Shown piece by piece: positions 2,344 to 26,424 of a DNA stretch of 28,091 nucleotides. Both the position numbers and the translations under genes were made by a program. A model generated the notes under the pieces. The model ran no database searches. It was not told where the DNA came from and worked only from the letters and a program-made list of their open reading frames with translations. The stretch's first letter is position 1, and every line of letters starts with the position of its first letter. The stretch spans positions 1-28,091 of IMG/VR virus record IMGVR_UViG_3300046010_015612. One strand, 5' to 3'. Origin of the DNA: a virus.

Positions 2344-2351
2344 TTGGATGT

Positions 2352-2380
2352 TTTGTGATGTTGTTCGATATGTATAATAA
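2352..2380 (+). promoter_or_regulatory. Putative promoter for the first tail-fibre gene
   Basis: TTTG at 2352-2355, a 17-nt spacer and TATAATA at 2373-2379 lie in the 42-nt gap before the ATG at 2386. The 16-mer ATATGTATAATAAAAA (2368-2383) is repeated exactly at 16320-16335 before another gene, which argues for a real regulatory element. Confidence 0.5.
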
Positions 2381-2385
2381 AAACA

Positions 2386-3381
2386 ATGTCACAATACACC
2401 TTTTCAACTAGAGAGTATGGACCTAATGCTAAAGGTTCAACACTAACATGGGAAGATTTAGATTATAGTTTATTATTTTTATCTGAATCCCTTAATGAAA
2501 TTGAATTTTACCCATTATCTGGTTCAAATTACACTTTTGTAGAAGCAAATGGAACACCTACTCAAAATGGTTTATCTTTATCTGCTTCTTATGCTTTAGC
2601 TAAAACTGCTAGCCCATCTTCATCTAGTAGATTTGCAGTTTTATTAGGGCCCGGAAAATACCAATTAGCTAGTAATTTTACTTTTGACACAGAATATTTA
2701 GATGTTGTTTCCCTTACAGGATATAAAGATGTATATGTTACAGGTAGTGGCACTATTGTAGTTGGAGCTGATAACATATATGTAAGAGGAATTGATACAG
2801 GAAATAATAATTTTACAATAACAAGTAGTTTCCCTGGCACAATATTTAAAAATTGTAAAGGTGGAGATGAAAGTTTTGGTGGAAATCCAAACCCAACAGT
2901 AGGAGGTATTCCTAATCCCGGATACACTATAGCAAGTACATTTGTAGATTGTGAAGGTGGTGATCGTAGTTTTGCAGGATATGGTTCAGCATATGGTACT
3001 TTTACAAATTGTATTGGAGGAAATGAATCATTTGGAAACTATTGTGATGGAACCTTTAAAAATTGTGTTGGTGGAAATAATAGCTTTGCTACTTTAGGAA
3101 ATATTGAAGGTGGAACTCTTGAAAATTGTACTGCTGGGGATGCAAGTTTTGCTTCTATTGGATTTATTGGAGACTTTCCTATTCCACAACCCCTTCAACC
3201 TAAATTAATAGAATGTGTTGGAGGAGCTAATAGCTTTACTATAAACACATTTGGGCTACAATACGGATATTTACAAGAATGTCGTGTAACAGCAGGTAAT
3301 ACTTTTCCTAACAACATTTCATTCCCGGGTCAATTAGTTAATTGTGTAACTCCAGGTTTTGCTCCAATAAACGCTCAGTAA
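2386..3381 (+). CDS. Tail-fibre-type beta-helix protein with Cys ladder
   Basis: This is a 331-residue protein with no signal peptide. Residues 1-50 (MSQYTFSTREYGPNAKG...) look like a virion attachment module, judging from position and composition. The middle (about 95-150) has short hydrophobic beta-type strands. From about residue 151 to the end there are seven to eight degenerate repeats of the type GTFxNCxGGxxSF, about 20-25 residues apart, each placing one Cys and one Phe at the same position. That is what a right-handed beta-helix with a stacked Cys and Phe ladder would show. It is probably a fibre or appendage that contacts the host surface. It is first in a run of four virion-type genes. 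The structural role is inferred; no catalytic motif is visible. Confidence 0.65.
   Translation: MSQYTFSTREYGPNAKGSTLTWEDLDYSLLFLSESLNEIEFYPLSGSNYTFVEANGTPTQNGLSLSASYALAKTASPSSSSRFAVLLGPGKYQLASNFTFDTEYLDVVSLTGYKDVYVTGSGTIVVGADNIYVRGIDTGNNNFTITSSFPGTIFKNCKGGDESFGGNPNPTVGGIPNPGYTIASTFVDCEGGDRSFAGYGSAYGTFTNCIGGNESFGNYCDGTFKNCVGGNNSFATLGNIEGGTLENCTAGDASFASIGFIGDFPIPQPLQPKLIECVGGANSFTINTFGLQYGYLQECRVTAGNTFPNNISFPGQLVNCVTPGFAPINAQ
2836..3348 (+). repeat. Tandem beta-helix coils (F-x-N-C-x-G-G-x-x-S-F)
   Basis: The translated repeats read IFKNCKGGDESF, TFVDCEGGDRSF, TFTNCIGGNESF, TFKNCVGGNNSF, TLENCTAGDASF, KLIECVGGANSF, YLQECRVTAGNTF and a final QLVNCV. The DNA copies have diverged, so the repeat is held by selection on protein structure and is not a recent duplication. 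Confidence 0.85.
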
Positions 3382-3404
3382 ATTTAAATTTTTATAAAAA
3401 AGAT

Positions 3405-6400
3405 ATGACAACTTATTCATTTGTACAATACGATGTTTTAAACGATTTAATATACTTTAAAGGAACACCAACTCCTGGGTTAGTAGATACAATTAATCAA
3501 AATAAAAACGATATTAATTCGATTAAAGCCATTATCCAAAATGACACAACAGGACAATTAACCCTACTTCCTTCATCAGCATCTCAAAATATTAAAAATT
3601 TCTTAGCAACTGTTTCTGAAATTAGTTTAGCTGATTCACAATATATTACTTTAACTATAGCAATTATAGATGATACTTCAATAGGTAATGTAGATGTAGT
3701 TTCTAGAAATTTAGATGGTACTAAAACATATGCAACTAAAGGAGGTGCTTCTCTTATTATAAGCATAGATATTCTTAAACCAGGAAAAAAATGGCCTACA
3801 ATGGGCAAATGTAGAAATTGCCTTAAATTTACATTTGACGAAGATAATGAATTTAATTTTACTGGAAATATAGGTGGAAATTGGGATGGTACCTGGAAGA
3901 ACGGACAAAAAGTTTATGATGTAAACATCCCAACATTTGCTACTCCTCAAAGTTTTGGAAATTATACAAACTATAAAATATTTTGGAAGCCCAATGTTAC
4001 CTATTCAGGATTAGATTATAATGGAAATGCAATTAATATTATAAACACACATAAATGGATATGTGTCCCATCTTCTTCTATTGGTACACCATCTGAATTA
4101 AGTAATACTACATTTTTTCATGTACTAAATAATTTTTCAGCCTCTTGTGCTTATGCTCCACCAACAACAACGTGGTATAACTTTTTTGGAAAAAATGGAT
4201 ACTTTCTTTTAGAAAATACTCCATTACCGACTCAACAAACAAACACTCAACAAAATGCAAAATGCCCTTCATTTTCTCCAACCCCTGGAGATGTAGATTG
4301 GGGATATAATTGTGGACCAAATGGGTGTGTTGCTACTCCCTCTGGATCAATAGGTACATATGCTACATTAGCACAATGCCAAACTGCTTGTATTATAAAT
4401 TATGGGTGGAATTGTACTACAGGTGGATGTGTTTCTGGTAGTGCTGCTAACCCTGGAGTATATGTTACATTAGAAGAATGTCAATTATCATGTATTCCTG
4501 ATTATGGTTGGAATTGCACAGTCCCTGGAGGATGTATTCCTGGTACTGAAACTAACCCAGGTGTATACGATACACTAGCACAATGTGAACTTGCTTGCCC
4601 TGCAAGTTATGGATATAACTGTGTTAATGGAAATTGCGTACCTGGAACTTCAACAAATACAGGATCATATGCTACAATAGCAGAATGTACTGCTACTTGT
4701 GCTGTTACTTACGGATATAATTGTACTCCAAATGGATGTGTTCTTGGAGATGCTGCAAATACCGGTTCATACGCTACAATAGAAGAATGTGAAGCTGATT
4801 GTTTTTACCCAACTCCCGAACCAACTTTTTGTGGTGAATGTATTGGAAACTTAGTTACTAATGGAGACTTTACTACTACCGATAACTGGATTGCAACCCC
4901 ATCTTCATATACTCCAGGAGTTGGTATAGTATTAATTGATCCATCATCATCTCCTTTTGGAGCAGGGTATACAACAGCAGGTATAACATCAAATGTTCAA
5001 TTTAATAATGATAATACTTCTAGTGTATATTTAACTCAAGCAAATGTTTTTAACATTTCTTGTTCATATAATGTATGTTTCCAAGCATGGGCAAATATAT
5101 TCCCAGCAAACTCACCTGATGCTACTATTTCAATAGGAGATGGAAATTACCCTATAACTAATGTACTAAGTGGACTTACCCAAACTCCAACAGCTTATAA
5201 TATTGTTTTAAACAATGTTAGCACTAATAATCTTACCTTTTATTTTGGATTCCCTTCAGGCTCTACAGCGGCTAACGCTGAAATTAACATAGATAATATT
5301 TGTGTTACATTATTAAGTTGCCCTCCTGAAGAAGTTACAGATTGCCTTATAACAGGTTCTATATACAGTTATGAAGAAGTTGAATATGATTGTTTATGTC
5401 CTGAAGGGTATGTTAGTAATGGAAGTGGAAGTTGTGTTAGTACTTTAAATCAAGTAATATTACCTCTTACTTTACCAACAGCATCATACAACACATATAT
5501 ATCTAATATTTATATTTGGAATTTTGGACAAGGATTTTCAGTATTACAACCTCCATCTTCATCAAATACCTTATTTTACCCAACCCCAGGCCCATTATGG
5601 TATTATTATAATTTATCTTCTTTAATAGGTACAGGAAACCCTTCTTTGTATTACCAATACAATTTAGATGGAACAGGTAATACATCTTCACTTAATCCTT
5701 CCCCAATTGCTGGAAATCCTAATATATATAAAACCCAATACACTTTTGATATATTAAAAGCTCCATTTTGGTCTAATCCATCATCATTAGGAAATCCCCC
5801 GTGGACAATCAATACTTTTGGACAATATAATTGGAACAGTGCTAATTGGAATGGAAGTATCACATCAGCAACTACTCCTATATTCCCAACTCCAAGTAAT
5901 CCTTATAGTACTAATTGGATATTAAAGAGAGCACGTTATATTAGAGAAAACAATAATCCTCAAAAAATGTGGTTTGGATGTGGAACTGCAATTTCCCCAT
6001 CCCCAACAACAAAAACATATTATCTTTTAATTACAGCAGCTCGTCAATTTAAAATTAAGTTAAATGGTGTAACTATTATTACAACAGGAGGTGGACAAAC
6101 AGTACAAAATGCAATGAGCAGTATTGATTATCCTATGGTATGGCAAAATTCATATGCTCGACAGTTTGCAACTCCTCTTACAGGACTAGGTACATTACCT
6201 GCTCCATTTTATGGAAATAATCCTTATATTAGTGCTTTTAGTAGACCTAGTGGGTCATTAGCATATCTTAGTGGAGTAGGTGTTTTAAACCCAAGTTACA
6301 TTGATTATTTTAGCCTTACCCAACCAACTGTCTTTACTTCTCAAAGAACTACCCCGTATATATACCCTATTACAATCCCTTCAGGATCTTGCGGTATAAT

Positions 6401-7859
6401 TAATGTTGAAGTTAGACCTGGAAATAGTTGTGATGAAGATGAATGGATAGCAGCCGCTTTATTTAATAATACTGCTGCTGAAATAGCAAATGCTACTTCA
6501 TTTAATAATTTAAATATTGTATGGGATACTTCTTATCTTACTGATTTAAGAACAATTCCTAATAATATTACTAATTTCCCTACTGCATCAGGCCCAAATA
6601 CTAATTTATTTGCAACTGCTTCTCATGAAATATATTTTTATGGATACCTCCCAGGCCAAGAACCATCACCAGGATCATATATCCCAGTATGCCCATCTGG
6701 AAGTACTCCTATAAGTGGATCAGCATGTAATGGGTGTTTAGCTTCTGGTTCTATAGTAGTTTCTGTTCCATGTGGTGATTGTATTGAATGTAATCATGGT
6801 AAATTATATAATGGATATGTAGTAGATGCTGGTGGATATACATTACAAGGCCGTGGATCTGGTGGTATTGTTAACACTAATTTAACAGCAAATAACACTT
6901 GGGTTATACCAGCTGAATCTGATTGGGATACTTTAATAACCTATTTAAACAATGGAATAACTCCTCCTACAGTAACAGGTAGTTTAGGAACGACTGTTGG
7001 TGGTGAGTTAAAAGATTACACTAGAGATTTAAACGCTACTTGTTGGGAAAATCCAAACATAGGTGCTCAAACAGCTACTGGAAGTAGTGGATGGGCAGGA
7101 ACCGCTGGTGGTAAAAGAGATAATACTGGAACCTTTAGTGGATTAGGATTTGAAGGGATATGGTGGAGTGTTAACTCATCATCAGCATTTCCAAATCCAT
7201 TCCAACTATACACTAGAGAACTAAAACATTTTTCAGATGATGTTTATAGAAATCTTTATACTAAAAATTATGGTTTTTCTCTTCGTTTAGTTAGACCAGC
7301 AGCTGCTGGAGAAGTTGATGGATCTACTATTATAAGTGCTTATACAGGTAATGATGGAACTTCATATGATGGAATTGTAATTGGAACTCAAGTTTGGATT
7401 AATAAAAACTTATCAGAAACCCAATACAATAATAGTTCAAACATTTCTATTACAACAAATTCAACATCTTGGGGCAATGCTATAAATTCACCAACTACTG
7501 CTTCATCTTGTTTTTATGATAATGATACTAACAATGAAGTACTTCCTGCAGGAAATATTGATCCTTCAACTGGAGCGTGTTATACCTTTCCTTCATTTTA
7601 TGTTTATCAAAAATGTGAAACAAATGAATATCTAGTTCAAACAGTAAGTGGAAGCACAACTACTCCTGGAAATGTACAAAGAGATTCTAATAATGATTGT
7701 TGGTCATTTATAAACACTCCAACAGGACTTCCTAATTACCCTAACCAAACATTATATACAGGAAATTATTTTTCAGGAAGTAATTATGTATACGATGATT
7801 GTGATGAATGTAATGCTATTCATACTATTTATATGAAATTTGGAACTAAAAATTGTTAA
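3405..7859 (+). CDS. Large multidomain tail adhesin with Cys-rich repeats and FISUMP-like domains
   Basis: This protein has 1484 residues from the ATG at 3405 (MTTYSFVQYDV); an upstream in-frame start at 3342 would overlap the preceding gene and gives an implausible N-terminus. Visible parts in order: an N-terminal region of about 290 residues; five Cys-rich repeats (about 298-467); a carbohydrate-binding-like segment starting NGDFTTTDNW (about 485-640); an EGF-like CLCPEGYVSNGSGSC; a long Pro/Ser/Asn region; a FISUMP-like domain (about 1133-1300) with WVIPAESDWDTL, a wWS core and YGFSLRLVRP; and a second FISUMP-like opening (IGTQVWINKNL, about 1325 on). FISUMP domains occur in surface proteins of Bacteroidetes and Fibrobacter. 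A receptor-binding or adhesin role in the virion is inferred. The many cysteines suggest a disulfide-stabilised extracellular protein. Confidence 0.7.
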   Translation: MTTYSFVQYDVLNDLIYFKGTPTPGLVDTINQNKNDINSIKAIIQNDTTGQLTLLPSSASQNIKNFLATVSEISLADSQYITLTIAIIDDTSIGNVDVVSRNLDGTKTYATKGGASLIISIDILKPGKKWPTMGKCRNCLKFTFDEDNEFNFTGNIGGNWDGTWKNGQKVYDVNIPTFATPQSFGNYTNYKIFWKPNVTYSGLDYNGNAINIINTHKWICVPSSSIGTPSELSNTTFFHVLNNFSASCAYAPPTTTWYNFFGKNGYFLLENTPLPTQQTNTQQNAKCPSFSPTPGDVDWGYNCGPNGCVATPSGSIGTYATLAQCQTACIINYGWNCTTGGCVSGSAANPGVYVTLEECQLSCIPDYGWNCTVPGGCIPGTETNPGVYDTLAQCELACPASYGYNCVNGNCVPGTSTNTGSYATIAECTATCAVTYGYNCTPNGCVLGDAANTGSYATIEECEADCFYPTPEPTFCGECIGNLVTNGDFTTTDNWIATPSSYTPGVGIVLIDPSSSPFGAGYTTAGITSNVQFNNDNTSSVYLTQANVFNISCSYNVCFQAWANIFPANSPDATISIGDGNYPITNVLSGLTQTPTAYNIVLNNVSTNNLTFYFGFPSGSTAANAEINIDNICVTLLSCPPEEVTDCLITGSIYSYEEVEYDCLCPEGYVSNGSGSCVSTLNQVILPLTLPTASYNTYISNIYIWNFGQGFSVLQPPSSSNTLFYPTPGPLWYYYNLSSLIGTGNPSLYYQYNLDGTGNTSSLNPSPIAGNPNIYKTQYTFDILKAPFWSNPSSLGNPPWTINTFGQYNWNSANWNGSITSATTPIFPTPSNPYSTNWILKRARYIRENNNPQKMWFGCGTAISPSPTTKTYYLLITAARQFKIKLNGVTIITTGGGQTVQNAMSSIDYPMVWQNSYARQFATPLTGLGTLPAPFYGNNPYISAFSRPSGSLAYLSGVGVLNPSYIDYFSLTQPTVFTSQRTTPYIYPITIPSGSCGIINVEVRPGNSCDEDEWIAAALFNNTAAEIANATSFNNLNIVWDTSYLTDLRTIPNNITNFPTASGPNTNLFATASHEIYFYGYLPGQEPSPGSYIPVCPSGSTPISGSACNGCLASGSIVVSVPCGDCIECNHGKLYNGYVVDAGGYTLQGRGSGGIVNTNLTANNTWVIPAESDWDTLITYLNNGITPPTVTGSLGTTVGGELKDYTRDLNATCWENPNIGAQTATGSSGWAGTAGGKRDNTGTFSGLGFEGIWWSVNSSSAFPNPFQLYTRELKHFSDDVYRNLYTKNYGFSLRLVRPAAAGEVDGSTIISAYTGNDGTSYDGIVIGTQVWINKNLSETQYNNSSNISITTNSTSWGNAINSPTTASSCFYDNDTNNEVLPAGNIDPSTGACYTFPSFYVYQKCETNEYLVQTVSGSTTTPGNVQRDSNNDCWSFINTPTGLPNYPNQTLYTGNYFSGSNYVYDDCDECNAIHTIYMKFGTKNC
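4299..4806 (+). repeat. Five tandem Cys-rich protein repeats (34-35 residues)
   Basis: Units start at 4299, 4401, 4503, 4608 and 4710. Each follows YGxNC..xGCVxG...NxGxYATxxECxxxC, with four Cys in fixed positions and a spacing of 34 or 35 residues. The copies differ at the DNA level throughout. Confidence 0.9.
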
Positions 7860-7878
7860 TTAAAAAAAATAAAATAAA

Positions 7879-9405
7879 ATGGCTTTTGAATACAAAGACG
7901 AGATAAAAAACATTTTACTATCAATGTCCTTTGATGAAACCTTCCCTTCAGGGGCTTGGGTCGGATATGGGTTTCAAATGAGGTATAGTGGTTCTGCTAC
8001 AGGTTCTGTTAGTGGTGCTATAACTATGTGGGATGAAAATTTATTATCTACAGGAACAGCTTCTTTACAGATATTTATTCCATCTTCTTCATATTTAGAT
8101 TCTCCTTCAAGAACATCTGCTTCATTAGCTTCATTAGTAAGTGAATATACTAATTTTACCTGGTCAGGAAGTGATTATAATAAAATCTCAACTCAAATTA
8201 TTTATGCCCCAGGAGAAATTAATCCATACGCTTGTAGTGCTACTTGTTATCAAGGAGAATACCCATGGGTGTTTGGAGTCGGAAACATCAACCCAGCTAC
8301 TATTCAAAACCCAGCAAATAGACAAACTCAAAGACCATTAAAAGGAGGAATTTCAATTACTTCAACATCAAAATCAACTCCATTTGCTCCTTTTGGAAGC
8401 TCAGGAACAATGGGTCTTGTATGTCAAGATTCAGCATCTAATGCTTTAGTTGGTTTAACAAATAATCACGTAATAGTTAAAGATCCATTTTATACAAATC
8501 AAAGAAATATTGCTGGGGTAATAGAAAATGAATATGATTTAGTAGATTCTTCTAATACAATTCAAGGAGATTTTGTTTATCAAACAGGAGAAGTTCAACC
8601 TGTTTCACCTGGGGGAAATCTTGAAATTGGGAGAGTATTAAGATATGTTCCTTTATATACTTCTGCTTCTACTGCTGCTAACCCTACTAAGATTAATAAC
8701 TCAGATGCTGCTATATTTTCACTTTATTGCACAGCAAGTGGTGGAGCTACAATTATAAACTTTACATCTTCATTCCAGCAGTTAGGATTAACTTATACTT
8801 CTTCAATGCCTTTTGCTTCAACAGCAGAAATAAATAACTTAATGAACACAAACCCTGAACTTTATAGCTCAGGAAGAACAACAGGAGCTAAAGGTTCTCC
8901 TGGAACTTTATGCCCTTTAAGAATACTTGGGTATCAAAATTCTTACGTAGGATATAATCTTCAAGGAACATCAACATTAGCCTATATGCAAGATTTAATT
9001 GCATTTGTAAAACCTGATAACAGTGCATCATATTCTCCTCCTACCCCTAATGCAAGTGTTTCAGTTTGCCCCTATCCAGCTTGGGCGGGAGATTCAGGTT
9101 CTACTTTAATTGCTAATATAGGTGGTACATGGAAAATTATTGGTTTAGTATTTGCTGGAAATGGTGCTCCGTATAATCCATTTGTAAATTATGAAGTTGC
9201 TTCTAGTATAGGATTAGCATGTCGAATAGATTACATTGCATCTCAGTTAGGGATTAAAGCTTGGACTGGAAGTATTGCACCTGTAGTAGACAATAATAGT
9301 ATTACGTATGTTACAGTTTCTGGAAGTAATGATACTAAAATTTATAATTGTAGTGGTTCAAACTATTGGCAAGTTGGGCTTACTGAAAAACATGATTTCT
9401 GTTAA
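7879..9405 (+). CDS. Virion-associated trypsin-like serine protease candidate
   Basis: This 508-residue protein begins with about 155 residues of Ser/Thr/Tyr-rich sequence, perhaps a virion anchor. Residues 156-460 read as a chymotrypsin-fold protease: GTMGLVC.. (176-182) and LTNNHVI with His197; NNSDAAIF with Asp276; GRTTGAKG (332-339); GDSGST with Ser406; then IIGLVFAGN (420-428). The order and spacing of His, Asp and Ser and the GRTTG and GLxFAG elements resemble a group of intracellular-type trypsin-like proteases that includes plant Nal1. No secretion signal is seen. It lies between two tail-type genes with gaps of about 20 nt, so it is probably a structural protein made late. It could cut host surface proteins during adsorption or process neighbouring fibre proteins. 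The fold assignment is strong; the target is unknown. Confidence 0.75.
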   Translation: MAFEYKDEIKNILLSMSFDETFPSGAWVGYGFQMRYSGSATGSVSGAITMWDENLLSTGTASLQIFIPSSSYLDSPSRTSASLASLVSEYTNFTWSGSDYNKISTQIIYAPGEINPYACSATCYQGEYPWVFGVGNINPATIQNPANRQTQRPLKGGISITSTSKSTPFAPFGSSGTMGLVCQDSASNALVGLTNNHVIVKDPFYTNQRNIAGVIENEYDLVDSSNTIQGDFVYQTGEVQPVSPGGNLEIGRVLRYVPLYTSASTAANPTKINNSDAAIFSLYCTASGGATIINFTSSFQQLGLTYTSSMPFASTAEINNLMNTNPELYSSGRTTGAKGSPGTLCPLRILGYQNSYVGYNLQGTSTLAYMQDLIAFVKPDNSASYSPPTPNASVSVCPYPAWAGDSGSTLIANIGGTWKIIGLVFAGNGAPYNPFVNYEVASSIGLACRIDYIASQLGIKAWTGSIAPVVDNNSITYVTVSGSNDTKIYNCSGSNYWQVGLTEKHDFC

Positions 9406-9426
9406 ATAAAATAAAAAAATAAAAAT

Positions 9427-11955
9427 ATGAGCTTTGCTATTTGTTTAGATCAAAATACTCCAAACTTTAATGTTAACAATTTATCTGCTAATGGTTTTAG
9501 CATTTATACTAATTTAGATCTTCAAAACCCGATTTATCAAGGTATTCCTTATACCCAATTGTTTCAACCACCTATAGGAAACTGTCCTTTTCTTGTTACA
9601 GTTCCTCAAGGGGCTACTCAACTTATAGTTATAGATCAATGTGATCCAAACTTAGATGTTGCTGCTGCTATATTTAATCCTACTAATATATCTTCTGGGC
9701 AACTTACTGTTGAATGTTGTTATGCTGTAATTAACATACCACAAGAACCACCTCCCCCATTCTGTGAGACTTGTCCTTTAACGTTTGATACGTTTTTAAC
9801 AGCAACTACTGGTTCTATTATAGCAGGAAATTTATCTTCAACTTGTGGTCCTGTAACAGATTATACCATTGGGTGGTATTTAAATGGAAACTATTCAGCA
9901 CCTGCTATTACTTCAGGATATGGAAATACATTTACTTACCAATTTCAACACCCATTAACAGGAAATTCAGCTGTACCTGTTTTAGCAGGTAACTGGGAAG
10001 GTATTATACATGATATTACAATAAATGGTGTAACTTATAGTAGTGTAAGTGGTTCTGCTGGTGGGCAATCAATCCCATTTGAAAGTTGTTTTGATACAGT
10101 AGTAGCACAACCTCTTAAATGTAATAATGGTGCATACCAAGGAATTGCAAAGTATACTCACCAAATTAACTTTAATAGCCAAGCAGTAGGTACTACATCT
10201 GCTCCTGTATCGTTAACATTTGCTTTAAATCCTTCAACAAAATATTTTGCTTATCTTTTTAATGCGTATACTGTTTCAGATGAGATAGAAATTAAATGGA
10301 AATCAGGAAACCCAAATGCTACTTCAAATCCTACTTTATATAGTCAACCTATTTACTTAGAAAAACTTAAAAGAGGATCTGATATTCCTGTTAGTAATAA
10401 CCCAAATCTAAATACTACTCCACAACTACCACAAGCCCCGAATATAATTTTTAATAATGTTTGGCCTAAAGAATCTTCTACTATTGGTGGTAATTTTTCA
10501 AATTTTGGAGCATTTCAAAGAGTGTTAACTTTAACTAGTCTAGAAACTAGTAGCAATGTATTATTTCCTGACTTACTCGAAATTACTATAACACCAAATA
10601 CGACAAATAATAATACCCAATGGAAAGCAGCATTTCAGTGTTTAGATAATTTTGATTGTACTGACTGTAATTATTCTAACTGGAAGGATAGTTTAGGTAA
10701 AATACAAAATCTTTATTTACAAAAAATATATGGGTGTGATGCCCAAAGGCTTATAGTAAGTATTTCAGGATGTAACTCAAATTCAGATCTTGTTAGTGGC
10801 TTATCTGATAATCCACTTACATCATTACAAGGAAATCTAGTTAATTCATATCAAATAAACCCCAGTTTTCAAAGTTATCCAAATTATTTTTTGCAACTAT
10901 CTCCTAATACTTATTGTGACTATGTAGATTTACATACGCCAAATAGTACTTGTGGTCCTTCTTCAACAGGAACCATCACTTTAAATAAAATCCCACAACA
11001 AATTCAACTAACTTTTGACTTGTATAGTGACTATACTTACTATAAAAATAGTTTAAATACAGCATTTTCTACAATTCTTCCAAATCCCCCTACTTCTTCA
11101 GTTTCATGTCCTGCAGGAACTACTAATTTAGATTATTATAGATATATTTCTTTACAAGTTCCTATTCAACAAAATTCTGGAGCCAATTGTGGGGATAATA
11201 CTAATTTTTCCACTTATCTATTTCATGTAAATGATTATTTTAACATACAATATGTTAATGATGGTAATCCTAATGCAACTTCTTGGTCTATAACAATCCC
11301 TCAAACTCTGATGGTAAATTGTTACCCTGTTTTAAATTGTAATAATTGTAATGCTAATCTTAATAACTTTATCAACCAGTACAACCAAAATGTTCAAGAC
11401 CCAACAAATTTTGCATTTACTACTACTGTAGGAGCTAAATCTATAAACCCATTTTCTAATAACCATTATGTTTTTACTTACTCTTCAGTTTCTCCAAGTG
11501 GTTCTTTATGTTTTATTAATTTAAATCAAACAGGTTTTCCTTGGTATGCTACTTACACTATACCATTTGTTTCTTCTCCATCATCCCCTACAGGATGGAC
11601 TAACTTAACTTCTTTATCAAGTTCTCTTCCTTGTGATTTTACTAAATATCCAGCACCAACTTCTTATTTTCAAGAATATGGATGGATGTATAAAGGATAT
11701 TCTTTAGGACTTCAAGTTCGTTTTCCTCATTTAACAAGTAGTTTTAACTATTCAACATCAACAAATGATTTTGAAATATATGCTATTACTAATCTTACAG
11801 GCACTGGATCTCTTGATCTTAGTACTAATCAATACCCTGCTCCTTGCCCTGAACCTTCAGGCTCATTAATATACTCGTATATTGGAGGAACACCTACGGT
11901 TTATAGTGCATCTTATTTTGTAGGAGGATCTCCAACATTAACAATAGATCCTTGA
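9427..11955 (+). CDS. Large Asn/Ser/Thr-rich virion-type protein of unknown fold
   Basis: This 842-residue protein is not recognised. It is rich in Asn, Ser, Thr, Pro and Tyr, has many scattered Cys (for example CETCPL near residue 113, and FDCTDCNYSNW and NCNNCN further on) and no predicted membrane or coiled-coil segment. Composition and style match the two genes before it, so it is most likely a tail fibre or appendage subunit. A repeated theme of the form xxWKxGNPNATS / VNDGNPNATSWS appears near residues 290 and 615, suggesting two related beta domains. It is the last gene of the structural run and is followed by a hairpin. The enzymatic role, if any, cannot be read. Confidence 0.6.
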   Translation: MSFAICLDQNTPNFNVNNLSANGFSIYTNLDLQNPIYQGIPYTQLFQPPIGNCPFLVTVPQGATQLIVIDQCDPNLDVAAAIFNPTNISSGQLTVECCYAVINIPQEPPPPFCETCPLTFDTFLTATTGSIIAGNLSSTCGPVTDYTIGWYLNGNYSAPAITSGYGNTFTYQFQHPLTGNSAVPVLAGNWEGIIHDITINGVTYSSVSGSAGGQSIPFESCFDTVVAQPLKCNNGAYQGIAKYTHQINFNSQAVGTTSAPVSLTFALNPSTKYFAYLFNAYTVSDEIEIKWKSGNPNATSNPTLYSQPIYLEKLKRGSDIPVSNNPNLNTTPQLPQAPNIIFNNVWPKESSTIGGNFSNFGAFQRVLTLTSLETSSNVLFPDLLEITITPNTTNNNTQWKAAFQCLDNFDCTDCNYSNWKDSLGKIQNLYLQKIYGCDAQRLIVSISGCNSNSDLVSGLSDNPLTSLQGNLVNSYQINPSFQSYPNYFLQLSPNTYCDYVDLHTPNSTCGPSSTGTITLNKIPQQIQLTFDLYSDYTYYKNSLNTAFSTILPNPPTSSVSCPAGTTNLDYYRYISLQVPIQQNSGANCGDNTNFSTYLFHVNDYFNIQYVNDGNPNATSWSITIPQTLMVNCYPVLNCNNCNANLNNFINQYNQNVQDPTNFAFTTTVGAKSINPFSNNHYVFTYSSVSPSGSLCFINLNQTGFPWYATYTIPFVSSPSSPTGWTNLTSLSSSLPCDFTKYPAPTSYFQEYGWMYKGYSLGLQVRFPHLTSSFNYSTSTNDFEIYAITNLTGTGSLDLSTNQYPAPCPEPSGSLIYSYIGGTPTVYSASYFVGGSPTLTIDP

Positions 11956-11972
11956 TGATCTTTAAAAAATAA

Positions 11973-12004
11973 TTTGGCCCCGTAAAGGGGCCTTATTACA
12001 TTTA
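11973..12004 (+). promoter_or_regulatory. Putative folE promoter overlapping the terminator
   Basis: TTTG at 11973-11976, a 20-nt spacer and TACATTTA at 11997-12004 match the Bacteroidetes TTTG/TAnnTTTG pattern. The terminator stem fills the spacer. The expected transcript would have a leader of about 15 nt before the ATG at 12024. Confidence 0.55.
11976..11996 (+). terminator. Hairpin terminator after the tail-gene run
   Basis: GGCCCC (11976-11981), loop GTAAA and GGGGCC (11987-11992) are followed by TTATTA. The U-tract is short, so termination may be partial. The hairpin lies within the spacer of the folE promoter. Confidence 0.75.
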
Positions 12005-12023: not shown

Positions 12024-12722
12024 ATGTCAGAAAACACACGTAGAAAAAAACACACAGAACTAGAATGTGTACAAGTAGGTTATGCAAACGGAGTTGCACC
12101 CGGTTTTCCACTTACTGAAAATGAAAAATGGAAAATGGTAGATGAAGCTGAAAAAGCTTATGGTAAATTTTTAGATGCTTTAGGATGTGATTGGCGAAAC
12201 GATCCAAATTCATCAGAAACACCTCGTCGAGTAGCTAAAGCTTATGTATTTGATTTATGGGCAGGTAGATATACTGCAATGTCAGATATCACTTCATTCC
12301 CATCAGACGGATACGATGGTATTGTAATTGAAAGAAACATCCCAGTTACTTCAATGTGTTCACACCACCACCAAACAATTGGAGGAGTAGTTCATATTGG
12401 TTATGTAGTTGGAGAAGGTGGTCGAGTAATTGGTTTATCTAAATTGAACCGTATTGTAGAATTATTCGGCCGTAGAGGAGCTATTCAAGAGCAATTAACT
12501 TCAGCTGTTCACAATGCAGTAAACAAAGTATGTGAAGGAAACAGAGGTATTATTGTTACAGTAGTAGCAACTCACAATTGCGTATCTTGTAGAGGAGTAA
12601 AACACCAAGGTGCTTCAATGGTTACAACAAAAGCATCAGGTGTGTTTATGGAAAACGATAACCAAGCACGTAAGGAATTTTTCGATAGTATTAAAATCAA
12701 TAATGGCGGACACCAAATTTAA
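12024..12722 (+). CDS. folE: GTP cyclohydrolase I
   Basis: FolE converts GTP to 7,8-dihydroneopterin triphosphate, the entry point of folate and 7-deazaguanine synthesis. The 232-residue protein shows the family motifs: SMCSHHHQTIGG with zinc ligands Cys112 and His115 and catalytic His114; IGLSKLNRIVELFGRRGAIQEQLT (136-159); and ATHNCVSCRGVKH with His184 and zinc ligand Cys186. All key residues are present, and the length is close to E. coli FolE (222). In this phage it most likely feeds QueD and QueE encoded about 10 kb upstream. It has its own promoter-like element directly behind the tail-gene terminator. The next gene follows after 5 nt, so it opens a new operon that runs toward the polymerase. 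Confidence 0.95.
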   Translation: MSENTRRKKHTELECVQVGYANGVAPGFPLTENEKWKMVDEAEKAYGKFLDALGCDWRNDPNSSETPRRVAKAYVFDLWAGRYTAMSDITSFPSDGYDGIVIERNIPVTSMCSHHHQTIGGVVHIGYVVGEGGRVIGLSKLNRIVELFGRRGAIQEQLTSAVHNAVNKVCEGNRGIIVTVVATHNCVSCRGVKHQGASMVTTKASGVFMENDNQARKEFFDSIKINNGGHQI

Positions 12723-16320: not shown

Positions 16321-16335
16321 TATGTATAATAAAAA
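16319..16335 (+). promoter_or_regulatory. Putative late-type promoter for the first shared-module gene
   Basis: ATATGTATAATAAAAA (16320-16335) is an exact copy of the element at 2368-2383. No TTG lies at a -33 distance, as expected for a T4-style late promoter that has only a -10 element. It overlaps the polymerase stop codon. Confidence 0.45.
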
Positions 16336-16345
16336 TTTAAATAAA

Positions 16346-16696
16346 ATGACTCAAGAACAACTTAGAATGCAGATGTTGGCTGGTATTATCACAGAAGGAC
16401 AATACAAAGCTATGTTAAATGAGGATGAAGATGATAATGACCCAAGTTCATTTGATATTAATCAAGATTGGGATTCATTAAAGGTATTAGGATCTGAAAC
16501 TGATCATCAAGGTGAATGGGTAATATTTGCTGATCCTGAAGATCCATATTTAGATGAAGAAGGATATAGTTTTGCTGTTGAAAAAAGACAAATAGATCAA
16601 GTAGCAAATGGAGAAAAAATAGGAGTTGAAGATGGATCTAGTATCTCTCATTACATGACTTCTCAAGATGCTAAAAATATCCTAAGCCAAATTTAA
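16346..16696 (+). CDS. Putative internal head protein with LRMQMLAGIITE module
   Basis: This 116-residue acidic protein starts at the ATG at 16346; an in-frame ATG at 16322 would lie in the promoter element and breaks the alignment with its paralogues. Residues 1-26 (MTQEQLRMQMLAGIITEGQY...) match the N-termini of the proteins at 17507, 24725 and 25822. ITE|G at 17/18 fits the T4 prohead protease consensus (L/I-X-E|A/G/S), whereas LNE at 26 is followed by Asp, a poor fit. The rest is rich in Asp and Glu and has no known domain. The module also resembles a SHOCT-type helical hairpin. Packaging into the head is inferred, not shown. It sits between the polymerase and clamp genes with its own late-type element. 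Confidence 0.65.
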   Translation: MTQEQLRMQMLAGIITEGQYKAMLNEDEDDNDPSSFDINQDWDSLKVLGSETDHQGEWVIFADPEDPYLDEEGYSFAVEKRQIDQVANGEKIGVEDGSSISHYMTSQDAKNILSQI

Positions 16697-17506: not shown

Positions 17507-17812
17507 ATGAAAAAAGAACAACTCCGTATGCAAATGTTGGCTGGTATTATCACAGAGAGCCAATACAAAGCTATATTGAATGAAAGTAAATTTGAAATTA
17601 TAGGATCTGATGCTGATGAACTTTTAGATGTTATTAGTTTAATTAATGGAAAAAATATAGCTAAACTTAAACCTTTAGACACAACAGGTCATCAAATTGC
17701 AGACGATAAATTTTCTATTGAAGTTGAACTTGATAACAGTGAATATATTCAAAAAATTAATTCATTTTTAGAAGAAAGAGGATTTCAAAGCAAATTATAT
17801 AAAACCAATTAA
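17507..17812 (+). CDS. Putative internal head protein with LRMQMLAGIITE module
   Basis: This 101-residue protein starts at the ATG at 17507; a longer frame from 17474 would overlap the clamp gene and break the alignment. Residues 1-26 (MKKEQLRMQMLAGIITESQY...) are almost identical to the 16346 product, also at the DNA level. Two candidate prohead protease sites are present: ITE|S (17/18) and LNE|S (26/27). The remaining part, after residue 27, has alternating strand and helix (FEIIGSDADELLDVISLING..., FSIEVELDNSEYIQKINSFLEERGF), which could be a small ferredoxin-like alpha/beta fold of unknown role. Processing and packaging are inferred from the module. Confidence 0.65.
   Translation: MKKEQLRMQMLAGIITESQYKAILNESKFEIIGSDADELLDVISLINGKNIAKLKPLDTTGHQIADDKFSIEVELDNSEYIQKINSFLEERGFQSKLYKTN

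Positions 17813-18221: not shown

Positions 18222-18225
<4 letters not shown>
17869..18225 (+). CDS. Hypothetical protein with AT-hook-like N-terminus
   Basis: This 118-residue protein opens with KRRGRPARDEND (5-16). The RGRP core is an AT-hook-like minor-groove binding motif, so DNA contact is possible. Residues 32-110 contain FYIVKDTTNFTVIERSV, VVGYYSSFGNAVNRIAKEKF and a C-terminal helix (IQGYINTWKEVKDGMESMLNKLEI). The YYSSFxxAxxxIAKEKF pattern is reminiscent of small phage proteins of unknown function. Its stop overlaps the groES start (ATGA), so translation is coupled to the chaperonin genes. Function is not known; a link to chaperonin expression is only positional. Confidence 0.65.
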
Positions 18226-20151
<1,926 letters not shown>

Positions 20152-20203: not shown

Positions 20204-20929
20204 ATGGATTATACAAAAATATACAATCAAATTGTTAAACGTGCTCAAACTCGTAAACTAGACGGGTATATTGAAAAGCATCATATAGTTCCAAAGTGTA
20301 TAGGTGGTTTAGATGTGAAAGAAAACATTGTTGAGTTAACGGCTCGTGAACATTTTTTTTGCCATAGATTACTTTGTGAAATGTACCCAAAAGAACCTAA
20401 GTTATGGTATGCTCTTTGGTTAATGGCTATAGGAAAAAGAAAATGGATTGAATCTACTCCATATAATATATCTAGTAAAGAATATGAACGTATAAAGTTA
20501 GAATTCATTGGACATAGAAAAGGAAAACCTATAAGCAAACAACATAAAACCAAAATAAGCAAAAGTAACTCTAAACAAATAATCCAATACTCGACCTCAG
20601 GTGAGTATATCAAAACTTTTCCAAGCGCAATGGATGCCGAAAGATATATCAATCAAAAACCTACAGCACATTGGAAAGAACTTAGAAATAATATAAACGA
20701 TTGTTGTAGAGGAAAACAAAAATCTGCTTATGGGTATATTTGGAAGTATGAAGGAGATTTCTTAAATTTAGAAGAACATAAAGGAGCAAATAATTGTAAA
20801 GCAACAAAATTAATTATTTACCAAAATAAAACATATAAATCTCAAACCGATTTTTTCAAAAAAACAGGAATGAGTAACTATACATTCTATAAAATGTTAA
20901 AAGAAAATCAAATAACTTATGGAAACTAA
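20204..20929 (+). CDS. HNH homing endonuclease with NUMOD domains
   Basis: This 241-residue protein is a free-standing homing endonuclease of the phage HNH type. Residues 22-60 hold the nuclease: YIEKHHIVPKCIGG with His26 and His27, then ENIVELTAREHFFCHRLL with Asn41, His50 and His54. GHRKGKPISKQHKTKISKSN (about 103-122) is a NUMOD3-type DNA-binding element. IIQYSTSGEYIKTFPSAMDA to YGYIWKYEG is a NUMOD1-type module. The C-terminal part (IIYQNKTYKSQTDFFKKTGMSNYTFYKML) looks like a further helix-turn-helix DNA-binding unit. It lies directly after the groEL hairpin and overlaps the next gene by 11 nt, as expected for an insertion into an intergenic site. Confidence 0.92.
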   Translation: MDYTKIYNQIVKRAQTRKLDGYIEKHHIVPKCIGGLDVKENIVELTAREHFFCHRLLCEMYPKEPKLWYALWLMAIGKRKWIESTPYNISSKEYERIKLEFIGHRKGKPISKQHKTKISKSNSKQIIQYSTSGEYIKTFPSAMDAERYINQKPTAHWKELRNNINDCCRGKQKSAYGYIWKYEGDFLNLEEHKGANNCKATKLIIYQNKTYKSQTDFFKKTGMSNYTFYKMLKENQITYGN

Positions 20930-24724: not shown

Positions 24725-25585
24725 ATGAATAAAGAAACTTTACGTATGCAAATGCTTTCAGGTGTAATCACAGAAAGCGAATACAAAGCAAAATTAGAAG
24801 AAGCTACTCAAAAAGATTCACTTAACGAACACTACGTTGCAGGTGGAATTGTAGGAATTGGAGCAATCAATCAAATCCCCCCTCGTGCTAAAGCAGTTTA
24901 CGAAGATGCATTTGAACATTTCTTAGGTCAAAAATATGGTATTAATGAAGTAGAAAATCTAGAAGAAACTGAAACAGGAGACCTTGACCCAGCAATTAAA
25001 AATGATCCTAACTTTAAAAAACTTGTAAACTATTTTAATCAACATCCAGATGAAGCTGAAGAAGTTAAGGATGAAGTTAAAAAATTAGAAGAAGTAAGTG
25101 TTAAAAAATCTTCTGATGGTTCTTTTTATATAGAAGATGGAGTATATAACACTTACTATGATGAAAAAAATGGTAAATATTTTAAACGTGAAGATCTTGA
25201 AGGTGGAAAACAAAAAACAACTGAAATTTCAAAAGAAGAATATAAAAAAGTAAAAAAAGAATATATAAAAACAAAATTAATTAATATAGGTCTTAGTGCT
25301 GCTGCGTTAGGTTTTGTTGGTGCATTAATGGCTGGACCTCTTGGAACTTATTCCCCTGACCAAATATTAGATTCAGTTGCAATTGCTGCTGGAATTGGAG
25401 CAACTGCAAGTGCAGCTTTAAGTGAAGGTGGAGAAGTAGAAGAAAAATCTTTATATGAAGATGAATCTCCTACTAAAGAAGAAATAGCAGCATTTGAAGC
25501 AGCAGTTGACAAGTTAGTTTACATGACAGGAATGAGTAAAGAAGATGCCATTGCTGCAATTGGACGAGTAGCTCAAACAAAATAA
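24725..25585 (+). CDS. Putative internal head protein with module and hydrophobic hairpin
   Basis: This 286-residue protein starts with the shared module MNKETLRMQMLSGVITESEY; ITE|S (17/18) and LEE|A (26/27) fit the prohead protease consensus. Residues 28-180 are acidic and helical, with a long charged stretch (ISKEEYKKVKKEYIKTK). Two hydrophobic segments follow, at about 185-205 (LINIGLSAAALGFVGALMAG) and 214-232 (ILDSVAIAAGIGATASAAL), joined by a short PLGTYSPDQ loop: a possible membrane hairpin. The tail (246-286) is a small helical unit resembling a metal-free EF-type or UBA-like pair (TKEEIAAFEAAVDKLVYMTGMSKEDAIAAIG). A role as an ejected internal protein that interacts with the host membrane is a hypothesis. 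Confidence 0.65.
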   Translation: MNKETLRMQMLSGVITESEYKAKLEEATQKDSLNEHYVAGGIVGIGAINQIPPRAKAVYEDAFEHFLGQKYGINEVENLEETETGDLDPAIKNDPNFKKLVNYFNQHPDEAEEVKDEVKKLEEVSVKKSSDGSFYIEDGVYNTYYDEKNGKYFKREDLEGGKQKTTEISKEEYKKVKKEYIKTKLINIGLSAAALGFVGALMAGPLGTYSPDQILDSVAIAAGIGATASAALSEGGEVEEKSLYEDESPTKEEIAAFEAAVDKLVYMTGMSKEDAIAAIGRVAQTK

Positions 25586-25821: not shown

Positions 25822-26424
25822 ATGAAACAAGAACTATTACGTATGCAAATGTTGGCTGGTATCATTACTGAAAGCCAATATGTTGCTAAATTAATTGAAG
25901 CTTCTAACACCATGTTTGATGACAGAAATGAAGCACTTGGGATATTATTTAGAAAAAGAACTCCTGAAGATCTTTATGATGACGACTATGAATATCTATG
26001 GATTCATGAAAATGTAGTTAAATTTTGTGAATTTTTAGGATATGGTGAAGAATCTTTGGATGTGGCTGGTGAGTTTACTGACTTTGCTTACCCAGGAACA
26101 GAAGATGATTATGAATCACTAGGTAACCCAAATGTCCCAATTGAAGGTATCACCATAGGAATGTATAGAAAAGTTATAGAAGATTTTTATGAAAAACCTG
26201 AAGATGAATCCCCAGATGAAATTCCATTAACTTCAGAAATAAAGGCATACATTGATAATGCTGTTCAAAGTGCTAAAAAAGATGGAGAGTTAGAAGACTT
26301 AATAAATGCAGGGTTCTTTGATACCGACATTATAGATAATATCTTAGTTGAATTTGATGATGAATTTCCAGATGCTGATGATGTAAGTCAAGAAGTAAAA
26401 GATTATATTGAATCCCAACTTTAA
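25822..26424 (+). CDS. Putative internal head protein with LRMQMLAGIITE module
   Basis: This 200-residue acidic protein starts at the ATG at 25822; longer starts inside the preceding gene would break the module alignment. Residues 1-27 read MKQELLRMQMLAGIITESQY, then VAKLIEA: ITE|S (17/18) and LIE|A (26/27) both fit the T4 prohead protease consensus, the second very well. The remainder is strongly acidic (many Asp, Glu) with helices such as TSEIKAYIDNAVQSAKKDGELEDLI and a C-terminal DDVSQEVKDYIESQL. No catalytic motif is seen. High acidity fits scaffold or internal head proteins. A strong terminator follows. Confidence 0.65.
   Translation: MKQELLRMQMLAGIITESQYVAKLIEASNTMFDDRNEALGILFRKRTPEDLYDDDYEYLWIHENVVKFCEFLGYGEESLDVAGEFTDFAYPGTEDDYESLGNPNVPIEGITIGMYRKVIEDFYEKPEDESPDEIPLTSEIKAYIDNAVQSAKKDGELEDLINAGFFDTDIIDNILVEFDDEFPDADDVSQEVKDYIESQL

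Follow-up and report, generated by a model that had tools for sequence, protein, structure and literature searches.

Most of the enzymes known from phage tails act on sugars or peptidoglycan, and the virion-associated tail depolymerases, mostly beta-helix spikes, cut polysaccharide. A different kind of enzyme is found in plants, where NARROW LEAF 1 (rice NAL1; PDB 7y77, 8hau and 8pmi) acts in the cells; its trypsin-fold domain comes after an N-terminal domain, and it has catalytic residues in the order H-D-S and the GR(T/S)(T/S)G and GDSGS motifs. Maize NAL1a has been described as an active protease degrading REL2 (PMC12915138). Streptogrisin and alpha-lytic protease (family S1) are secreted bacterial enzymes. 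The fold and family of the protein analyzed here are already known. As to phages, part of its relatives are grouped as 'protease' in PHROG 20754, and A0A7S9XDX3 of Virus NIOZ-UU157 is an uncharacterised protein; both entries say nothing of the role of the protein.

The phage protease described here is encoded by a 28-kb genome fragment from a T4-like phage (hereafter the window, i.e., the whole 28,091-nucleotide stretch of DNA that was analyzed). Similarly to rice NAL1, it displays a trypsin-fold domain preceded by an N-terminal domain, the H-D-S order and both of the above motifs. Unlike rice NAL1, with which it shares 11-16% identity, it has a C-terminal tail of its own and an N-terminal domain that carries an insertion, and it sits with adhesin genes whereas NAL1 acts in plant cells. 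It resembles streptogrisin and alpha-lytic protease in the fold of the catalytic domain only, since these enzymes do not match its NAL1_N-like domain, and it is related to A0A7S9XDX3 (33% identity, TM 0.73-0.83). The role that we propose for it, an enzyme of the adsorption apparatus opening the host surface, is similar to that of the tail depolymerases, but it would be fulfilled by a protease, the protein having a trypsin fold instead of a polysaccharide-active domain.

The protease gene and its family

The open reading frame at 7879..9405 almost certainly encodes a serine protease enzyme, judging from its sequence and its modelled structure. The features of the gene are as follows.

7879..9405, + strand: NAL1-like trypsin-fold serine protease (predicted), 508 aa; ATG 7879, stop 9405
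7879..8208, + strand: NAL1_N-like N-terminal domain, about residues 1-110, with an insertion as compared to most family members
8338..9264, + strand: trypsin/chymotrypsin-fold catalytic domain, residues 154-462, with streptogrisin/alpha-lytic protease matches
8467..8469, + strand: codon of the catalytic His197, in LTNNHV
8704..8706, + strand: codon of the catalytic Asp276, in SDAAIF
9094..9096, + strand: codon of the catalytic Ser406, in GDSGST
9265..9402, + strand: phage-specific C-terminal tail, ending ...YWQVGLTEKHDFC; linkers or extra domains occur here in relatives

The reading of the translation and of the codons found the three catalytic residues in the order and at the positions given by the original prediction, which had been made from the sequence alone, together with the GRTTG (residues 332-336) and GLVFAGN (residues 422-428) elements that it had noted. 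The interval it had assigned to the protease, 8347-9258, corresponds to residues 157-460 and nearly equals the trypsin-fold domain delimited by structure (residues 152-464). This ordered set of motifs is unlikely to be fortuitous: it was reproduced in none of 200,000 shuffles of the protease, and it occurred in 30 of the 4,056 fetched open reading frame entries, all 30 being copies or relatives of the protease gene. Furthermore, the pairwise dN/dS values among five protease relatives (0.19-0.43) indicate that the gene is under purifying selection.

The family was assigned with the help of bacterial relatives. A profile scan of bacterial genomes yielded none of them, and they were reached through a second DNA pattern, for SNNHVLA, which uncovered NAL1-like proteases of many phyla in bacterial and archaeal genomes. 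First, the alignment of the phage profile with the bacterial NAL1-like one covers almost the entire protein (hhalign 99.9%, E 3.6e-33). Second, the bacterial profile finds rice NAL1 (E 1.4e-15), and most of its members match the Pfam NAL1_N family. The phage-only profile reaches NAL1 weakly (E 0.0069). Among 19 phage relatives, six match NAL1_N, with a best E of 3.3e-5, and the window protease taken alone (P0001) matches none of NAL1_N, Nal1_C and Trypsin at the Pfam cutoff, which we attribute to limited sensitivity for a single divergent sequence; family membership therefore rests on the bacterial bridge together with the structural model. As for phrog_20754, it is matched by 15 of the 19 phage relatives (best E 8e-25) and weakly by the window protease (E 0.001).

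A structure predicted from the single sequence was discarded (pLDDT 31.6), and the AlphaFold model based on a 49-sequence alignment reached a pLDDT of 80.2 and a pTM of 0.88. As this alignment includes bacterial relatives, the model is evidence of the fold, not independent evidence of kinship with NAL1. The model has a trypsin-type fold, a structure without two beta-barrels being what could have contradicted the original prediction, and the NAL1 structures were its top matches in Foldseek (E 1.4e-11) and VIA-align (Z 23.4 for residues 1-474, 331 residues aligned, rmsd 3.9). The next structural matches were streptogrisin and alpha-lytic protease (Z about 19, residues 152-464). In the poorly modelled parts (residues 37-54 and 125-135), other folds are still compatible with the Foldseek and VIA lists. 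The N-terminal domain was delimited from the hhalign alignment, which starts at residue 9, and from the NAL1 structure, which aligns from residue 1 of the model. Together, these data support assigning the modelled protein to the chymotrypsin/trypsin fold (clan PA, serine type) and, within it, to the NAL1-like branch, as had been proposed from its motifs. Among the other candidates, a prohead protease of the T4 gp21 type was dropped, the fold matching NAL1/S1, and matches to Peptidase C3 and protein C proved to be motif matches on the GDSGS loop alone.

The bacterial NAL1-like proteases (LSNNHVLA...GDSGSL...GLLFAGS; loci L073-L190) have the same domain order as the phage ones, and the residues around the triad and GRTTG are common to the 49 phage and bacterial sequences. 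They nevertheless share 20-25% identity with the phage proteases, form a separate clade, are more charged and contain fewer cysteines, and have no adhesin cassette as far as seen. In the tree, a branch with a long stem and 100/100 support sets all 22 phage rows apart. From these sequence comparisons, the phage NAL1-like proteases probably constitute a lineage of their own, in phages probably of Bacteroidota.

Relatives and conservation of the catalytic triad

A search with PolB yielded 63 related phage loci, and a homologue of the protease is encoded by five different phages of the clade (the window being counted), always in the order B-protease-C; three further protease-carrying contigs of the clade came to light afterwards. 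Profile scans with N-terminal motifs had initially reached only the nearest phages, and the wider phage family was collected with a DNA pattern for GLTNNHV(I/V), the newly found members sharing 34-64% identity with the window protease. A tblastn search of 50,697 phage records gave no match for the window protease, L034 and L203, and a single weak match for two relatives, in an unannotated 484-kb phage.

The triad is invariant in a 19-sequence phage alignment (19/19), partly by construction as these sequences had been picked via the NNHV motif of the histidine and filtered for GDSG(S). The collection was therefore repeated with motifs lying outside of the triad, which gave 75 loci; a second such motif set gave 159 stretches in IMG/VR, 80 of which were kept. 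Among the resulting 78 non-redundant open reading frames, the three not spanning all sites are cut by contig ends, and the 75 others all possess H, D and S, along with the GDSGS loop. The residues lie, in order, in the contexts [ST]NNHV, (V/S)D(A/G)A and GDSGS across the phage relatives. A loss of His197, Asp276 or Ser406 in relatives, which would have weakened the original prediction, was thus seen in no complete row.

The gene varies among relatives. In a protease of the closest group (L003:6133-8067), the N-terminal domain is enlarged by an insertion of about 125 residues, and some relatives harbor tandem protease pairs, the two copies being diverged in L196 and L200 (as well as in the record of L218).

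An exchangeable cassette of low-charge genes

The protease gene belongs to a cassette, the features of which are as follows.

2344..11990, + strand: exchangeable 9.65-kb cassette (genes A, B, protease and C, and a terminator-like hairpin) between QueE and FolE
2386..3381, + strand: gene A, 331 aa, low charge, with repeated 'C-x-GG-x-x-SF(G/A)' units
3405..7859, + strand: gene B, 1484 aa, 52 Cys, probable adhesin from its Pfam Fib_succ_major match (E 1e-14) and composition
9427..11955, + strand: gene C, 842 aa, 25 Cys, probable adhesin, with the lowest charge (8%) among the window genes checked
11976..11992, no strand assigned: palindromic hairpin (GGCCCC-GTAAA-GGGGCC) that closes the cassette and resembles a terminator on the minus strand

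Two related loci, L004 and L015, align to the window up to position 2343 and resume from 11991, with about 23 bp in between, i.e., a clean empty site with breakpoints at the end of QueE and at the terminator-like hairpin. L004 is otherwise very close to the window (96% identity for the FolE-PolB DNA and 99% for the PolB protein). From this clean absence, genes A, B, protease and C and the hairpin constitute one unit, which is accessory since most close relatives are devoid of it. In L006, L008, L030 and L047, the same QueE-FolE slot is occupied by tail-fibre- or trimeric-adhesin-like genes, with repeated 'GSHAEG' or 'GNNNVALG-x-x-AL' units.

The products of the cassette are unusual in composition, with 8-12% of charged residues in A, B, protease and C versus 21-30% in the remaining genes of the window that were checked. 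The adhesin-type genes flanking the protease, as well as the gaps of about 20 nt separating them from it (19 and 21 nt by measurement), agree with what had been read in the sequence initially: B matches Fib_succ_major, B and C are of low charge, and both are probable adhesins. Gene A, which is present in full in every protease-carrying clade member with this region covered, has a tail-fibre-like 'S-x-LT-x-x-(E/D)-LD-x-x-L' motif at its N-terminus and may, from its sequence, encode a beta-helix spike. No solved structure was matched by the sequences of genes A and C, and the matches to sigma-70 promoters in the cassette are at chance level.

Position relative to tail genes

The claim that the protease lies among tail genes is plausible, with indirect support: a tail or tail-fibre module surrounds the gene in relatives, not in the wider surroundings of the window itself. 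No known tail family was found in the window, the outer neighbours of the cassette being nucleotide-metabolism genes, and in G020, a 174-kb contig of the same clade, the tail sheath is about 60 kb away from the protease. In this contig, most of the low-charge open reading frames are fibre-like genes or genes of the baseplate and sheath, and some 10 kb separate the cassette from a fibre-like block. The slot swaps and the adhesin-like composition described above support the claim, as do the following data from distant phages. First, in G022 the codons of the protease end at 3792 and the tail sheath gene starts at 4018, i.e., about 0.2 kb downstream, followed by tail tube and baseplate hub genes. 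Second, the sheath and the protease share a strand and are about 12-17 kb apart in several other records, including a 308-kb contig. Third, the protease of several relatives is fused, via Thr/Ser/Pro-rich linkers, to surface-repeat or unknown domains, in proteins of up to 1,117 aa. For example, large C-terminal domains follow the protease in L329:1663-5013, L339:2257-4584 and L410:2266-4602, with Thr/Ser/Pro-rich linkers in some of them, and BspA-like surface repeats were recognized by eye in L329 and L339.

In 24 loci of distant phages as well, gene C adjoins the protease. Moreover, a C-terminal domain present in the protease of one phage group (L196:4835-6760) recurs at the C-terminus of gene C in another (L237:10480-13125), with 38% identity (E 4e-23). 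This exchange of a domain suggests that the protease and gene C act in the same place. Two A4 proteases have a Pfam PBP match in this domain, and some members of the PBP fold inhibit serine proteases. A BppU-like baseplate domain, suspected in the gene upstream of the protease in distant phages, was rejected, the baseplate-hub match in the structure bank being at chance level (E 0.22).

Proposed function and alternatives

The host of the phage is likely a member of the Bacteroidota. This proposal is based on the G020 contig, some proteins of which end with tails of the type IX secretion system (Por_Secre_tail, E 2e-9; CHU_C, E 8e-13; a weak SprB repeat in one gene), a system known from Bacteroidota. 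The absence of a Shine-Dalgarno sequence (0/25 starts in the window) and the A-rich leaders were also counted in its favour. The two G020 genes concerned (L253:13667-15568 and L252:7694-9889) have signal-peptide-like starts in addition to their tails, and from their sequences these phage proteins seem to be exported by the machinery of the host.

We favour, with some reserve, the account in which an active protease on the tail-fibre complex cuts the surface proteins of the Bacteroidota host. The four-gene adhesin cassette (A-B-protease-C) would be swapped as a unit against tail-fibre genes, and the protease would be integrated in the tail-fibre/adhesin complex or exposed next to it. Its presence in the virion, which we infer from sequence data, is rather likely. 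Upon docking, the protease would cut host surface proteins (a receptor, an adhesin or a shielding layer), and this cutting would clear or commit the attachment, like the polysaccharide depolymerases on other tails. Plausible targets exist, as Bacteroidota surfaces are rich in secreted adhesins. The gene, the conservation of its triad, the fold, the kinship with NAL1, the limits of the cassette and its link to adhesins are results of computation; the proteolytic activity and the host-surface substrate are presumed. The catalytic residues being retained in all complete phage relatives examined, we suggest that an enzyme cutting proteins is carried by some phages to the surface of their host.

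The main rival is that the enzyme operates in fibre assembly, where it would cut the neighbouring adhesins (B, C or linkers) or itself, which would not require it to stay in the virion. Viral proteases often process their neighbours, and here B and C are inherited along with the protease in all five PolB-clade contigs and the three further contigs of the clade, gene C even being retained beside it in distant phages. In other distant phages, however, C is missing beside the protease, and B can be replaced by unrelated genes, so that there is no single conserved partner. In addition, the fused forms put the protease and surface-repeat domains in one chain, and no conserved cleavage site was identified. 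We consequently regard maturation as unlikely, though it survives better than the explanations below.

It could also be proposed that the protease, produced early or late, degrades host proteins inside the cell (takeover or counter-defence) and neighbours adhesin genes incidentally. Its N-terminus has no obvious signal peptide in its sequence, and maize NAL1a works inside cells, on a corepressor (PMC12915138). Such an intracellular role is nonetheless improbable in view of the slot swaps with tail-fibre genes, the fusions to surface-repeat domains, the location just upstream of the sheath in G022, and the adhesin-like low charge of the long phage members (9-13% versus about 18% in bacterial relatives). 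Finally, a structural or binding role for a trypsin fold deprived of catalysis, as happened in other trypsin-fold proteins, is very improbable, H, D, S and the GDSGS loop being kept in 75/75 complete rows collected without the triad.

If an intact and widespread family of trypsin-fold proteases is indeed swapped along with adhesin genes, the digestion of surface proteins for phage entry becomes directly testable, the family of a plant developmental regulator becomes connected to phages, and a protease group with presumably narrow targets becomes defined. We found no report, in the openly licensed literature, of this phage family or of a phage lineage tied to swappable adhesin cassettes. More tentatively, and with less confidence than we have in the account for the window, a large phage NAL1-like family (159 matching stretches in one IMG/VR scan) in the adhesin complex of contractile-tailed Bacteroidota phages might serve as an entry enzyme acting on surface proteins of the host, the proteolytic equivalent of tail depolymerases, spread as swappable receptor-binding cassettes.

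Other features of the window

The T4-like assignment of the window is based on PolB, GTP cyclohydrolase and a chaperonin, identified by a family search; the reading of translations added a sliding clamp, a clamp loader, a thioredoxin and 7-deazaguanine-pathway genes. The latter comprise QueD, QueE, FolE and a further candidate (3-2343 and 12024-12722), the sequences of which suggest that the phage DNA contains a modified guanine. The phage also carries GroES-like and GroEL genes (18222-20151) and an HNH homing endonuclease (20204-20929), and in a relative (L002:9471-12787) PolB is interrupted by an endonuclease-like gene. Four otherwise different proteins of the window begin with a common N-terminal tag, M-x(4)-LRMQML(A/S)G(I/V)ITE-x-x-Y-x-A, and are encoded at the following positions.

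16322-16696: tag-bearing open reading frame
17507-17812: tag-bearing open reading frame
24725-25585: tag-bearing open reading frame
25822-26424: tag-bearing open reading frame

This LRMQML-type tag, which we take to resemble the capsid-targeting sequence of the T4 type with its I-x-E cleavage site, has 90 matches across the PolB-clade loci, and in 86 of these its spacing from the initiating methionine is identical.
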